Part shown: positions 2,097-10,809 of the stretch, piece by piece
How the letters are laid out: each line of letters opens with the position of its first letter
Position numbering within the stretch: position 1 is the first letter of the stretch
Source: Bacteroidaceae bacterium
GTDB lineage: Bacteria > Bacteroidota > Bacteroidia > Bacteroidales > Bacteroidaceae
Length of the DNA: 10,998 nt
Reading direction: 5' to 3'
Assembly (NCBI GenBank): GCA_017557475.1
Contig: JAFYYO010000400.1
Location: forward strand, 1 to 10,998
The notes under the pieces: generated by a model
Database searches by the model: none
What the model saw: the letters and a program-made list of their open reading frames with translations, nothing else
Told to the model about the DNA's origin: nothing
Made by a program: the position numbers and the translations under genes

Positions 2097-2711
2097 ATGT
2101 TCATCGAACAGCCACCACGAGTCTTCCGTTGGTTCTATCCCCACGCTTTGTGGCGGATCAACCCTGACAGGAAGGCCGTCTATCTCACCTTTGATGACGG
2201 TCCCATCCCTGAGGCGACGCCTTTCATCCTCGACACACTCGACCGCTTCGACGTCAAGGCAACCTTCTTCATGGTGGGTGAGAACGCTGTGAAGTACCCG
2301 CATCTGCTCGAGGAAGTACGCCTTCGTGGTCACGGCATAGGCAATCACACATACAATCACATCTCTGGTGCTCGACACAGACCCTGGACGTATCTAGCCA
2401 ACATCAAGCGAGCCAACGACATCCTACACACCAACCTCTTCCGCCCTCCTCATGGGTGGATCGGTTTGATTCAGTATCGTGTGATTCGCTACTGCGGCTA
2501 CAAAGTCGTGATGTGGGACGTTGTGACGCGCGACTATAGCCGTTTGCTCACGGCCGACGACGTAGTAAATAATGTGAAACGCTACACTCGAAACGGCAGC
2601 ATCATTACTATGCACGACTCGCTCAAGAGCATCGACAAACTCAAGCACGCCTTGCCGGAGATACTCGCTTGGCTGAAACAGGAAGGATATGAGTTCGGCA
2701 TTATTGAATAG
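2097..2711 (+). CDS. Polysaccharide deacetylase family protein (NodB homology domain)
   Basis: This 204-residue protein is a compact NodB/CE4-type hydrolase, a family that removes N-acetyl groups from chitooligosaccharide, peptidoglycan or exopolysaccharide. All expected motifs are in order: TFDDGP at 31-36 (the two Asp include the catalytic base and a metal ligand), HTYNH at 84-88 (metal-binding His pair), RPPHGW at 116-121, VMWDV at 138-142, and ITMHDS at 170-175 with the catalytic His. There is no signal peptide or membrane segment, so a cytoplasmic or unconventional location is likely. Bacteroidetes commonly carry a short version like this one, and the substrate is unknown. It starts 11 bp after the DUF2723 gene, and its last 23 bp overlap the next gene, so the three are probably one transcript. 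Confidence 0.88.
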   Translation: MFIEQPPRVFRWFYPHALWRINPDRKAVYLTFDDGPIPEATPFILDTLDRFDVKATFFMVGENAVKYPHLLEEVRLRGHGIGNHTYNHISGARHRPWTYLANIKRANDILHTNLFRPPHGWIGLIQYRVIRYCGYKVVMWDVVTRDYSRLLTADDVVNNVKRYTRNGSIITMHDSLKSIDKLKHALPEILAWLKQEGYEFGIIE

Positions 2712-3600
2712 CAAAGACATCAAAACCCAGGCCCTGAGCTTGGGTTTTGTCGCATGTGGACTTGCTCAGGCCGAGCCCGTGGCTGAGAACTTTGCCGTCC
2801 GCTACCGCCGTTGGCTGGCTCTCGACTTCTGCGGAGAGATGGATTATATGCGTCGGAATGTCGAGATGCGCCTGAAACCCGACCTCCTTGTGCCTGGAGT
2901 GAAGACGATTGTGAGCCTTGCCATGAACTTCATGCCCGAGTCGCGACAGCCCGCCATCAGTCTTTACGTGCAAGGCCAGGACTATCATGATGTCATGCGA
3001 GAGCGGATGCGAAGGCTCATGGAGGACATGCATCTCGAAGGACGATGCTTTGTCGATACGGCTCCAGTCATGGAGCGTTACTGGGCTTGGAAGAGCGGAA
3101 TAGGGGTCGTCACTAAGAGTGGACTCATCAGCGTGCCAGGTTATGGGCCGACAGTCTTCCTTGGAGAACTCTTTCTGACACAAGAAGCCGACCTCTACGA
3201 CGAGCCGCTACCCGACTCTCTGCCAGAAGAATCAGGATGGGCCTCGCTTTGTCCTGCCCTGACTCCCGAAGGGCTTGATGCCCGCAGATGTATCAGCTAT
3301 CAGACCATCGAGCATCGCGGCCCTCTGCCTGAAGAGATTAAACTTAGCATGACCTTCTACGGATGTGACCGTTGCCTGCGTGCCACGCCCCAATTTGCTG
3401 AGGCAAAACCTACAAACGAGGCTGCTTTCCAGCCCTCCGAAGCACTCCTGCAGATGAAGCCCAGCGACTGGCAAGGCCTCACGGAAGAGCAATACCGAAG
3501 CCTCTTCAAGGGTTCTGCCGTCAAGCGAGCCAAGTTTGACGGTCTGAAACGCAACATCGAGCGTTGGCTCAACCAGTTTAGACTTGGGAATAAAGACTAG
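2689..3600 (+). CDS. QueG-like epoxyqueuosine reductase homologue lacking one [4Fe-4S] site
   Basis: The 303 residues align by eye along the whole length of QueG, the cobalamin and iron-sulfur enzyme that reduces epoxyqueuosine to queuosine in tRNA. Family landmarks: LGFVACGLAQAEPV (18-31), GEMDYMRRN (49-57), LLVPGVKTIVSLAMNF (66-81), QDYHDVMRER (97-106), VDTAPVMER with the conserved Asp at 123, LDARRCISYQTIEHRGPLPEE (196-216) and FKGSAVKRAKFDGLKRNI near the end. The usual CxxCxxCxxxCP motif is reduced to a single Cys-Pro (C188), with roughly ten residues missing. The second motif keeps C201, C226 and C229 but has Thr where the last Cys of the CP pair belongs (residue 233). The normally conserved GxGWxGKN segment reads GIGVVTKS (137-144). 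The frame is intact and base use resembles the neighbours. ATG at 2689 overlaps the deacetylase gene by 23 bp. The family is secure; whether it still makes queuosine is doubtful. Confidence 0.82.
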   Translation: MSSALLNSKDIKTQALSLGFVACGLAQAEPVAENFAVRYRRWLALDFCGEMDYMRRNVEMRLKPDLLVPGVKTIVSLAMNFMPESRQPAISLYVQGQDYHDVMRERMRRLMEDMHLEGRCFVDTAPVMERYWAWKSGIGVVTKSGLISVPGYGPTVFLGELFLTQEADLYDEPLPDSLPEESGWASLCPALTPEGLDARRCISYQTIEHRGPLPEEIKLSMTFYGCDRCLRATPQFAEAKPTNEAAFQPSEALLQMKPSDWQGLTEEQYRSLFKGSAVKRAKFDGLKRNIERWLNQFRLGNKD

Positions 3601-3654
3601 AAGTTTCCTCCCCCACTCCACACGCTATCCCCCGACACGACGTGCCTCGAGGCC

Positions 3655-3742
3655 AGTACCTCCCAGTCAGGATTGCAGTACCTCCACGGTTGTACTCGAG
3701 TACCTCCACGGTGTGACTGAAGTACTCGCCAGAAAGGACCGT
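3655..3742. repeat. Four-unit, 22-bp-phased degenerate tandem array in a convergent gap
   Basis: The stretch 3601-3754 between two converging genes has no credible gene. AGTAC recurs at 3655, 3677, 3699 and 3721, exactly 22 bp apart. The first three units share AGTACCTCC, and units two and three share 14 bases (AGTACCTCCACGGT). The junction of units two and three forms a perfect 12-bp palindrome, GTACTCGAGTAC, at 3692-3703. The other half of each unit is diverged. Function is unknown. Confidence 0.6.
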
Positions 3743-3751
3743 TCGAGTACT
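3721..3751. terminator. Possible bidirectional terminator hairpin
   Basis: AGTACTCG (3721-3728) and CGAGTACT (3744-3751) are perfect inverted arms of 8 bp around a 15-base loop. The hairpin lies 3 bp beyond the stop codon of the PHP gene on the minus strand and about 120 bp beyond the QueG-like gene on the plus strand. No T-run follows in either direction, so this is a weak candidate resting mainly on its position. Confidence 0.25.
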
Positions 3752-3754
3752 GAG

Positions 3755-4471
3755 TCAAATCGCTCCAATATACGTTAGGAAGCGGCCTGCGTCATAGTTC
3801 ATGATGAGTTCGTCAGGGAAGTTTGTCTCCTGCAGAAGCGGCCAAATGAAGCCGTAATTGGCAATATCGTAGCTGATATGAGCGTCGCTGCCCAGCACGA
3901 CAGGCACTTCGTAGCGCTTACAAAGCCGCAATATTTCGAGGTTGTTGGCACGAGCCTTCTCCTTCTTTCGGTTGGGATTGAGGCTGCTGTTATTAATCTC
4001 GAGAAGCGTCTTCGTTTCCTTTGCCGCCAAGACAATCGGCTCGAACAGGAGGTCGGCGGTGCCGTCGCCAGGATGCGAGATAATTTGCGTCCACGGATTT
4101 CTTATGGCAGCCAGCATTCCATCGGTGTTCTCCTCAATCGTTCCTCCTTCCCAGCAGAGCAGATGAATGCCGGCGATTCGGATATCGAGCCGTTGATAAT
4201 GGAACTCATCAAGGTCGAGCGTGCCCTTCGTATCCAAGATGTTCAGCTCAGCGCCAAGCAGGAGACGGAGGTTCCCATGCTGTCGGGGTACCACATGTAA
4301 GTTGCGGAAATAGATAGGGTTGCAAGTTCCAGGAATGCCCGGAGCATGTTCCGTAATGCCGAGAATCTCGAGGTTCTTCTCCTGAGCCGCAGTCACCATC
4401 TCCTGCAGGCTACTGTAAGCGTGCCCACTCATGATGGTGTGCGTGTGAGGATCAAGTGATATCTTCTTCAT
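3755..4471 (-). CDS. PHP-domain phosphoesterase, YcdX-like
   Basis: This 238-residue protein belongs to the PHP (polymerase and histidinol phosphatase) superfamily, closest to E. coli YcdX. Numbering from the ATG at 4471, the metal ligands are complete: H9 and H11 (DPHTHT), H17, H42 (TEHAPG), E75 (GAELNI), H103, H133 (ISHPGDG), D196 and H198 (GSDAH). Up to H133 these sit exactly two residues later than the YcdX ligands H7, H9, H15, H40, E73, H101 and H131, which strongly supports a trinuclear metal site and phosphatase or phosphodiesterase activity. The physiological substrate is not known. A longer frame would begin with TTG at 4477; I prefer ATG because MKKISLDPHTH matches the usual start of the family. 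It is the last gene of the minus-strand unit and overlaps the end of the rluA-like gene by 20 bp, so it is probably translationally coupled. Confidence 0.88.
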   Translation of the reverse strand: MKKISLDPHTHTIMSGHAYSSLQEMVTAAQEKNLEILGITEHAPGIPGTCNPIYFRNLHVVPRQHGNLRLLLGAELNILDTKGTLDLDEFHYQRLDIRIAGIHLLCWEGGTIEENTDGMLAAIRNPWTQIISHPGDGTADLLFEPIVLAAKETKTLLEINNSSLNPNRKKEKARANNLEILRLCKRYEVPVVLGSDAHISYDIANYGFIWPLLQETNFPDELIMNYDAGRFLTYIGAI

Positions 4472-8865: not shown

Positions 8866-10113
8866 ATGGAAAGGCTGCTGCACTATGTATGGAAGCACAA
8901 GATATTGCCCCTGAAACCGCTCACCACAGAAGACGGGCAGGAAGTGGAGGTTATCGACCCAGGTTTGCACAATCACAATCAGGGTCCTGACTTCTTTAAT
9001 GCCAAAATTCGGCTGGGCGGAACGGTTTGGGCAGGCAATGTCGAGGTGCATCTTCGCTCGTCGGATTGGTACAGACACAGTCACAACTCCGATCCCGCCT
9101 ACAATAGCGTCATCCTGCATGTCGTTGGAGAGATAGACGGAGAGGTCAAGACGGAGGAAGGAAAGACGCTTCCTCAGGTCCAACTCGACATTCCTCAGAG
9201 CATCCGACAGCGTTATGAGGAGCTTCAGAAAACTGAGGATTATCCGCGATGTCATCGCATAATTTCCTCGATTCCATCGGTAAAAGTGCACCAATGGATG
9301 GATGCTTTGCTCGTCGAGAGGCTGAAAGAAAGGTCGGAGTTGGTAGTCTCGAGAGCGGAAAGAACTGGAGGCGACTGGGAACGCGCCACTTTTGTGACAC
9401 TGAGCAGGAGTTTCGGCTTCGGTCTCAACGGCGATGCCTTCGAGCGTTGGGCCATGCGAATTCCGCTTTCGGCGGCAGGCAAACATCGCGACGACCTGTT
9501 CCAAATCGAGGCCCTTTTCCTCGGAATGGCGGGCCTCATTCCTGAGGTTCAGGCGGTTAAGAGCGAGCGAGAGGTTCAGCTTCTCCAGCAAGAGTTCGAT
9601 TTCCTGAAGCACAAGTTCAGCCTCGGAGAAACGATGGAAAAGGCAGATTGGCGTTTTCTTCGGACTCGTCCTCGCAATTTCCCCTTCATGCGAATCCTGC
9701 AGATTGCGGAACTTTATCACAGCGGTCGAGCACAGATGAGCAAGTTGCTGGAGGCAAAAAGCGTGGAAGAACTACAGAAGTGTCTGGAAGTGAAGGGAAT
9801 GACGGCAGCAAGTAGGAGGCTACTCATCATCAATACTGTGGTGCCTTTGCTCTTTGCTTATGGCCGCCACATCAGCGACGAGGACATTTGTCAGCGAGCT
9901 TGCCGACTCTTGGAGGAGCTTCCAGCCGAGAATAACTACATCCTGCGGCAATGGAAAGATTGCGGTCTGGAGGTCTCGACGGCTGCCGACAGTCAGGCTC
10001 TCATCCAGCTGAAACGCCAGTATTGCGACCGTATTGACTGCCTCAGATGCAGGTTCGGATACGAGTACCTTAAGGGCAGTTCTCAACGACCCCAGTTAAG
10101 TTGGCAAACATAA
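8866..10113 (+). CDS. DUF2851 family protein of unknown function
   Basis: This 415-residue protein matches what I know of DUF2851, a family common in Bacteroidetes and without assigned function. The N-terminal signature runs from VIDPGLHNHNQGPDFFNAKI (29-48) through WAGNVEVHLRSSDW (55-68) and HSHNSDPAYNSVILHVV (71-87). The middle is largely helical (140-350). A cysteine cluster sits near the C-terminus, C387-x4-C392-x2-C395, in QLKRQYCDRIDCLRCRFGY, and may bind metal. D42 followed by E60-V-H62 is spaced like the acidic core of PD-(D/E)xK nucleases, with His in place of the usual Lys; this is a speculation from spacing only. There is no signal peptide or membrane segment. The stop codon lies inside the first unit of the 22-bp array that follows. 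Confidence 0.85.
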   Translation: MERLLHYVWKHKILPLKPLTTEDGQEVEVIDPGLHNHNQGPDFFNAKIRLGGTVWAGNVEVHLRSSDWYRHSHNSDPAYNSVILHVVGEIDGEVKTEEGKTLPQVQLDIPQSIRQRYEELQKTEDYPRCHRIISSIPSVKVHQWMDALLVERLKERSELVVSRAERTGGDWERATFVTLSRSFGFGLNGDAFERWAMRIPLSAAGKHRDDLFQIEALFLGMAGLIPEVQAVKSEREVQLLQQEFDFLKHKFSLGETMEKADWRFLRTRPRNFPFMRILQIAELYHSGRAQMSKLLEAKSVEELQKCLEVKGMTAASRRLLIINTVVPLLFAYGRHISDEDICQRACRLLEELPAENNYILRQWKDCGLEVSTAADSQALIQLKRQYCDRIDCLRCRFGYEYLKGSSQRPQLSWQT

Positions 10114-10169
10114 CACGATATGATCGCAAACATAACACGTTATGATTGCAAACGTAACACGTTATGTTT
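10104..10169. repeat. Three-unit, 22-bp tandem array of imperfect palindromes
   Basis: GCAAAC starts at 10104, 10126 and 10148, exactly 22 bp apart. Each unit carries a dyad: CATAACACGATATG (10109-10122), CATAACACGTTATG (10131-10144; 6-bp arms, 2-base centre) and CGTAACACGTTATG (10153-10166). A degraded fourth unit (CAAACG) begins near 10170. The array overlaps the DUF2851 stop codon and ends 38 bp before the thioesterase ATG. It could be an operator array, a slippage-derived repeat or part of an intergenic RNA element. Confidence 0.7.
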
Positions 10170-10675: not shown

Positions 10676-10721
10676 CGATACAACTTCAGACGAAACAGCT
10701 ATCATCCTGTGCAAAGCACAT

Positions 10722-10801
10722 AACTTCCACGAGCGAAGCGAGTTAACTTCTATGAACGAAGTAAATTAATTTCCATGAGCGAAGCGAATTAACTCCATTA
10801 A
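10722..10801 (-). repeat. 23-bp tandem array, inverted relative to the repeats at 10628
   Basis: Three 23-bp units begin at 10722, 10745 and 10768 with AACTTCC, AACTTCT and AATTTCC, each containing a GA(G/A)CGAAG core. A partial fourth unit (AACTCCATTAA) starts at 10791. Read on the minus strand the units begin GGAAGTTA or a near variant followed by a CTTCG core, so they are the same family as the two plus-strand units at 10628-10675, facing them. Position 10702-10729 read on the minus strand also resembles the second plus unit, including GGATGAT against GGACGAT. The array ends 8 bp before dprA. The 182-bp space 10628-10809 contains no other gene or recognisable promoter. Confidence 0.6.
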
Positions 10802-10809
10802 AAGAAAAC

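Follow-up and report, generated by a model that had tools for sequence, protein, structure and literature searches.

The textbook epoxyqueuosine reductase QueG (TIGR00276; PDB 5d08, 5d6s), which catalyses the last step in making the tRNA modification queuosine, passes electrons along a chain of two iron-sulfur clusters to B12. Two clusters are also present in the reductive dehalogenases (RdhA; PDB 4ur3, 4ras), which act on organohalide substrates, whereas the B12-processing protein MMACHC/CblC (PDB 3sc0) is without an iron-sulfur cluster. QueH (PF02677), a member of an unrelated family, performs what is presumed to be the same step as QueG independently of B12. Here, we describe a queG gene in a 10,998-nucleotide stretch of Bacteroidaceae bacterium DNA (contig JAFYYO010000400.1; hereafter the window), the product of which lacks the four cysteines of the distal cluster of QueG. 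Compared with MMACHC/CblC, such a reduced QueG would be an intermediate in cluster number only.

According to the study of S. thermophilus QueG (PMC4646009), the distal cluster is held by C184, C187, C190 and C243 and the B12-proximal cluster by C194, C210, C236 and C239; a narrow EPR signal (g 2.06/1.94/1.90) is assigned there to the proximal cluster. From the same source are taken the role of the DYH motif in QueG catalysis, the disorder of the distal-cluster loop in the crystal, the contribution of a conserved B12-domain loop to the distal-cluster environment, and the position of both clusters near the surface, because of which electron entry is possible in principle at either of them. According to this source, reductive dehalogenases are without the DYH motif, and little is known of the electron-transfer partners of class III B12 enzymes.

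Cysteine Ligands and Fold of the Window Protein

In an alignment to the solved QueG enzymes, the four cysteines C188, C201, C226 and C229 of the window protein fall on the proximal-cluster set, and the cysteines that canonical QueG carries 10, 7 and 4 residues before C188 are absent. By the published ligand map, every ligand of the distal relay cluster is gone, whereas the B12-adjacent cluster still has its full set. A first-pass annotation of the window had reported this pattern, and direct reading of the sequence confirmed it, including the three missing cysteines of motif one and the ACG codon of Thr233 at the last distal site. The cluster pairing that the annotation had assumed matches the ligand assignment in PMC4646009, and its statement that 'exactly one cluster's worth of cysteines' was lost agrees with the published map and with the alignment to solved QueG.

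The window protein contains the QueG_DUF1730 domain (PF08331; 59.7 bits versus a cut-off of 25.1), and the only other Pfam match at E ≤ 0.001 was a weak one to PF13484. At the same E-value, its PDB relatives by sequence were the two solved QueG enzymes only. A structure model (AlphaFold), computed from a 108-row alignment that includes canonical rows, keeps the QueG fold; the protein aligns to residues 2–313 only of 5d08_A. In the linker that takes the place of motif one, the blocks 171–180 and 181–190 reached predicted local distance difference test (pLDDT) values of 81 and 67. The C-terminal three-HEAT-repeat domain of the solved enzymes is missing from the 303-amino-acid window protein. Most canonical QueG proteins of the genus are short too, with open frames of 299–345 amino acids in the rows of the smaller QueG tree described below, the exceptions being L071 (390) and L072 (388).

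Conservation and Selection among Relatives

The protein homology search yielded 7545 matches among 8000 scored candidates, the best 120 of which, including the window's own protein (P0001), were evaluated; residue counts over these 120 proteins (Table 1) describe the nearest matches only. The annotation had allowed for the missing ligands being placed elsewhere in the protein; the motif CxxCxxCxxxC was found in 0 of the 120. Three of them were deposited as 'DUF1730 domain-containing protein' and two were named epoxyqueuosine reductase by their source.

The 108-row comparison alignment consisted of 79 canonical rows, 5 five-Cys rows, in which the three motif-one cysteines are gone and the last distal cysteine is retained, and 24 four-Cys rows. 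The ratio of nonsynonymous to synonymous substitution rates (dN/dS), determined pairwise with pairs sharing branches and with pairs of dS outside 0.05–1.2 dropped, had a median of 0.134 for 128 four-Cys pairs versus 0.163 for 18 canonical pairs, revealing purifying selection on the four-Cys form. In-match stop codons were absent from all 36 reduced-QueG (four-Cys and five-Cys) genomes. As judged from this substitution pattern, selection maintains the reduced QueG.

Distribution in Genus, Family and Phylum

The reference genus, represented by 139 genomes, is that of G003 (metagenome-assembled; titled 'Bacteroidaceae bacterium'). QueG was present in 72 of these, and the ligand columns, read in all 72, revealed the full eight-Cys set in 36, the four-Cys form in 27 and the five-Cys form in nine. 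Since the titled genomes are metagenome-assembled, some gene absences may be assembly gaps. One of the four-Cys genomes, G704 (L251), has asparagine at position 233 and a single cysteine where the spacing would place the third distal ligand. In G005, an extra eight-Cys QueG (L013, G005:C6:236-1108) lies on a 4.1-kb contig beside the four-Cys gene; it is almost identical to the QueG of G101 and is probably a binning contaminant. This was the only complete second queG found; G001 has, besides its main gene, a four-Cys fragment of 126 amino acids at the end of a contig. The first-pass annotation had reasoned that close relatives with all eight cysteines would mark the window copy as a one-strain artefact. 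Eight-Cys proteins do occur, in more distant species of the genus only, and the close clade of 28 rows including the window is without any.

Across the phylum, 282 of 296 genomes matched the QueG model and 279 passed its cut-off. Below the cut-off were G003 (four-Cys), G400, whose gene is split over two contigs with the eight ligands complete in the ferredoxin piece, and G369, whose 35-bit match looks like a different protein. The distal cysteines were present in all 29 QueG proteins among 30 weak scorers picked by eye; ligands of higher-scoring genomes were read in three only, and the survey was limited to this phylum. In the family survey, 179 of 301 genomes matched, and among the matches listed (whole matches, with split ones left out) G003, G060, G558 and G544 alone were set apart by score, at ≥557 bits with the next at 437. 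The 30 loci read from this survey comprised these four, all reduced, and 26 canonical ones. Four weak TIGR00276 matches to proteins of 710–1202 amino acids (G039, G040, G043, G104) in a 101-genome sample were excluded as QueG.

Ancestry and Order of Loss

The main QueG tree (73 rows) was calculated with the motif-one, loop and last-Cys columns left out. The 37 reduced rows, i.e., the window and 36 genomes, formed one clade (support 99/99), as did the 28 four-Cys rows (99/99), and the nine five-Cys rows grouped with moderate support of 89/82 only. The main tree contains the loci of a smaller tree plus L059 and 13 further loci; the smaller tree was without L059 (299/303 residues as in L002), L069, L077, L078 (partial) and L014–L029 (repeats of L001–L012 or pieces). 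It gave supports of 100/99 for the reduced, 100/97 for the four-Cys and 98/98 for the five-Cys rows and, as drawn, places the reduced QueG within the canonical QueG of the genus.

In 57 of 58 queG loci, canonical and reduced alike, queG was preceded by a deacetylase gene in the same orientation; L040 had just a fragment of it, at the edge of the locus, and L035 had none. Because canonical and reduced genomes share the same locus, the reduced queG is the orthologue itself and not a spare copy; by its gene neighbourhood, the window queG sits at the ancestral queG locus.

The simplest order of events suggested by these forms is that the motif-one loop was replaced first and the idle fourth cysteine was lost later. 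The earlier proposal that the loss respects the cluster pairing stands as far as the pairing is concerned; a single coordinated event does not, as nine genomes keep the fourth distal cysteine. Because the fourth ligand was free once the other three had gone, the pairing would reflect order and relaxation.

Downstream of queG, the gap to the PHP-domain gene (window 3601-3757; the same interval in L003–L010 and L012) varied in length between roughly 0.1 kb and almost 3 kb. This variation among relatives implies that the queG/PHP junction gains and loses DNA.

Accompanying Changes in the Protein

Position 142 lies within the loop GxxG[KR][NH], in which W or F follows the first Gly in the genus, and this loop is replaced in the window protein. 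The residue is Gly in 79/79 canonical, Cys in 5/5 five-Cys and Thr or Ala in 24/24 four-Cys rows. Ser or Thr at position 154 of canonical QueG is changed to Pro in five-Cys and four-Cys rows, and position 205, mostly Leu in canonical rows, is Gln in reduced rows, including the window. The C188–C201 spacing is 13 residues in the window protein versus 14–16 in 77 of 79 canonical rows. We infer that the loop holding position 142 is the one facing the distal cluster and would have changed along with the vacated outer site. In the five-Cys rows this loop reads GxG[EQ]FC, and Cys142 occurs together with the last distal cysteine in 5/5 (L060, L061, L062, L064, L065) as well as in the further loci L125, L247, L249 and L250; from their joint occurrence, these two cysteines may pair.

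Only two columns, 48 and 120, were more than half Cys in four-Cys rows and below 0.3 in canonical rows. Cys48 (codon 2830-2832) was found in 22/24 four-Cys and 0/79 canonical rows, the latter having mostly His or Gln, and Cys120 is enriched in four-Cys rows. Relocation of the missing ligands elsewhere in the protein was rejected, two such columns being too few for four ligands.

Vacated Linker and Palindromes

The stretch between FLGELF and CPALT comprised 46–57 residues, in frame, in L005, L070, L073, L074, L075 and L124, and 22–25 residues in seven relatives shown without a long insert. The long linkers are coded by near-perfect palindromes (Table 1) with a predicted RNA folding energy of −94 to −108 kcal/mol. 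The arms in five of the six loci belong to one dispersed family, L073 carrying a different palindrome. A match to the dispersed arm was present in 25 of 28 genomes searched; counted with a 30-base arm, there were 111 matches in G005 (57 forward, 54 reverse) and 87 in G077, but several reduced genomes had just one to four and three genomes with canonical QueG had no match. The reversed-arm control matched none of the 28 genomes, and the tested arm had no match in the window. The linker palindromes resemble in-gene palindromic elements of Rickettsia. The vacated outer site appears to have become a variable linker; long linkers are tolerated outside the reduced form too, since the canonical L071 and L072 have them.

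Queuosine Pathway Context

QueH alternates with QueG among the species of the genus. It was over cut-off in 0/36 reduced-QueG, 0/36 canonical-only and 59/67 QueG-less genomes, so that QueG (72 genomes) and QueH (59) did not overlap over cut-off and eight genomes had neither. The four-Cys genome G002 has a partial QueH match below cut-off (20 bits) with a stop inside. QueA was present in 100 and the TGT enzyme in 90 genomes of the 101-genome sample, the sampled reduced-QueG genomes accounting for 23/23 and 20/23, respectively. From these gene inventories, the reduced QueG is the sole candidate epoxyqueuosine reductase in the genomes searched.

In a TGT tree of 89 genomes, which as a single-gene tree is a weak species tree, 17 four-Cys genomes fell into one clade together with G044, which has neither gene. 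The queG/queH swap required five changes when neither-gene genomes were left out and nine when they were included; at least two of the five are forced by well-supported branches, and all five fall outside the four-Cys clade. These placements imply that QueG was exchanged for QueH repeatedly nearby, and not where the one-cluster QueG lives.

Coordinates of the Features

Table 1. Features of the reduced queG locus in the window and in-frame palindromes of related loci.
Feature	Position	Strand	Evidence or remark
queG orthologue, reduced ferredoxin module, 303 aa	2689..3600	+	5' end overlaps 3' end of deacetylase gene
Polysaccharide-deacetylase-like gene, adjoins queG upstream	2097..2711	+	PF01522; conserved neighbour
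D98-Y99-H100, catalytic DYH motif of QueG, intact	2980..2988	+	Each residue in 120/120 listed proteins; 108/108 rows
D123, counterpart of catalytic Asp D130 (S. thermophilus QueG)	3055..3057	+	By alignment; 120/120, 108/108
Loop G137-G145, GIGVVTKSG in place of canonical G-x-G-x-x-G-[KR]-[NH]	3097..3123	+	
Linker replacing CxxCxxC of motif one; distal ligands 1-3 absent	3202..3249	+	Low-confidence stretch of structure model
C188 (TGT), proximal-cluster ligand kept	3250..3252	+	120/120; invariant in 108 rows
C201 (TGT), proximal-cluster ligand kept	3289..3291	+	119/120; invariant in 108 rows
C226 (TGT), proximal-cluster ligand kept	3364..3366	+	120/120; invariant in 108 rows
C229 (TGC), proximal-cluster ligand kept	3373..3375	+	120/120; invariant in 108 rows
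Thr233 (ACG) at last distal-cluster Cys site	3385..3387	+	T 118, M 1, V 1 of 120; C in 79/79 canonical rows
In-frame palindromes	L005:5696-5854, L070:1460-1597, L073:1457-1621, L075:1460-1618	+	
In-frame palindromes	L074 1460-1630; L124 1990-2130		Reverse complement frame positions

Scans of the window with Rfam (gathering threshold) and for tRNA gave no matches. Two repeat arrays were observed away from queG: three 22-nt tandem copies at 10097-10162, spanning the junction of the DUF2851 and thioesterase genes, and three imperfect 40-nt copies with a 23-nt period at 10721-10806, downstream of the thioesterase gene.

Discussion

The conserved proximal ligands and catalytic residues suggest that the window protein is probably, though short of certainty, an active epoxyqueuosine reductase that would bind the proximal cluster only. 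This corresponds to the 'one-cluster enzyme with a changed electron path' offered in the first-pass annotation, which is supported as the best reading of the data. A low-potential donor would reduce the proximal cluster directly, bypassing the former outer relay cluster; the proximal cluster would then reduce cob(II)alamin to cob(I)alamin, which in turn would reduce epoxyqueuosine-34 of tRNA to queuosine. In the open-licence literature searched, there was no report of a one-cluster QueG. More tentatively, and with slightly less than even confidence in the account as a whole, the protein may be a naturally occurring class III B12 enzyme with one [4Fe-4S] cluster instead of two, the first of its kind in our searches. 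Its outer cluster, which nearly all of the class possess, would have been dismantled stepwise, three loop ligands going before the fourth, with the five-Cys form frozen midway and possibly stabilised by Cys142–Cys233; the donor would dock at the proximal cluster, and the old ligand loop would be a tolerated landing site for dispersed palindromes.

Several points weigh against an active one-cluster reductase. With 194.6 bits, the window protein stays below the cut-off of 200 of the TIGR00276 QueG equivalog. The QueG fold of the model is partly borrowed, because canonical rows were part of the underlying alignment. Cys48 and Cys120 could, from their distribution, belong to some replacement site, and G704 retains a cysteine at a former ligand spacing. 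The exclusion of queG and queH is equally expected from two phylogenetically clustered traits, and the hypergeometric value calculated for it ignores kinship, independent swaps being few. Finally, no purified protein of this kind was found in the open-licence literature searched.

Among the rival explanations, a neofunctionalised QueG, which kept B12 and one cluster and turned to another substrate as a B12-processing protein or other reductase, appears unlikely. This 'new job', also raised in the first-pass annotation, is disfavoured by the orthologous locus, the invariant DYH motif and Asp, the retention of QueA and mostly of TGT, and the failure of QueH, counted over its cut-off, to co-occur with QueG in any of the 139 genomes; an eight-Cys QueG accompanies the reduced one solely on the short contig of G005. 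Somewhat less likely still is a dead or decaying queG with epoxyqueuosine being tolerated. The hypervariable, palindrome-accepting linker and the sub-threshold TIGR00276 score would fit decay, but the frames free of stops, the low dN/dS and, across the 120 listed proteins, the near-invariance of the catalytic residues and proximal cysteines speak against it.

It is improbable that other ligands (e.g., C48, C120, Thr233 or linker residues) have taken over the distal cluster, giving two clusters with unusual coordination. The near-invariance of Cys48 in the four-Cys clade together with its absence from canonical QueG, the enrichment of Cys120, and the coexistence of Cys142 and the last distal cysteine in five-Cys forms are in line with it, whereas the disappearance of three adjacent ligands and the want of a conserved linker cysteine in the 120 listed proteins argue against it. 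As for an assembly or sequencing artefact, the window is an 11-kb stretch, but the pattern recurs in 119 other listed proteins and 27 four-Cys genomes; a single-contig artefact was rejected on these grounds and its probability is negligible. The annotation had argued that the threonine codon is not a single-base read error.

For annotation, the consequence is that reduced QueG goes mostly just under the TIGR00276 cut-off: the window gene and most of the reduced relatives scored sit just below it, and G017 just passes. The reduced QueG is carried by a bacterial group of the gut and rumen, and the genus represents a natural experiment in which QueG occurs intact, half-dismantled or with one cluster, or is replaced by QueH. 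If the window protein is indeed an active one-cluster reductase, the outer cluster would be dispensable, the textbook two-cluster electron chain would be reducible to one, and the enzyme would offer a minimal system for finding the electron donor.
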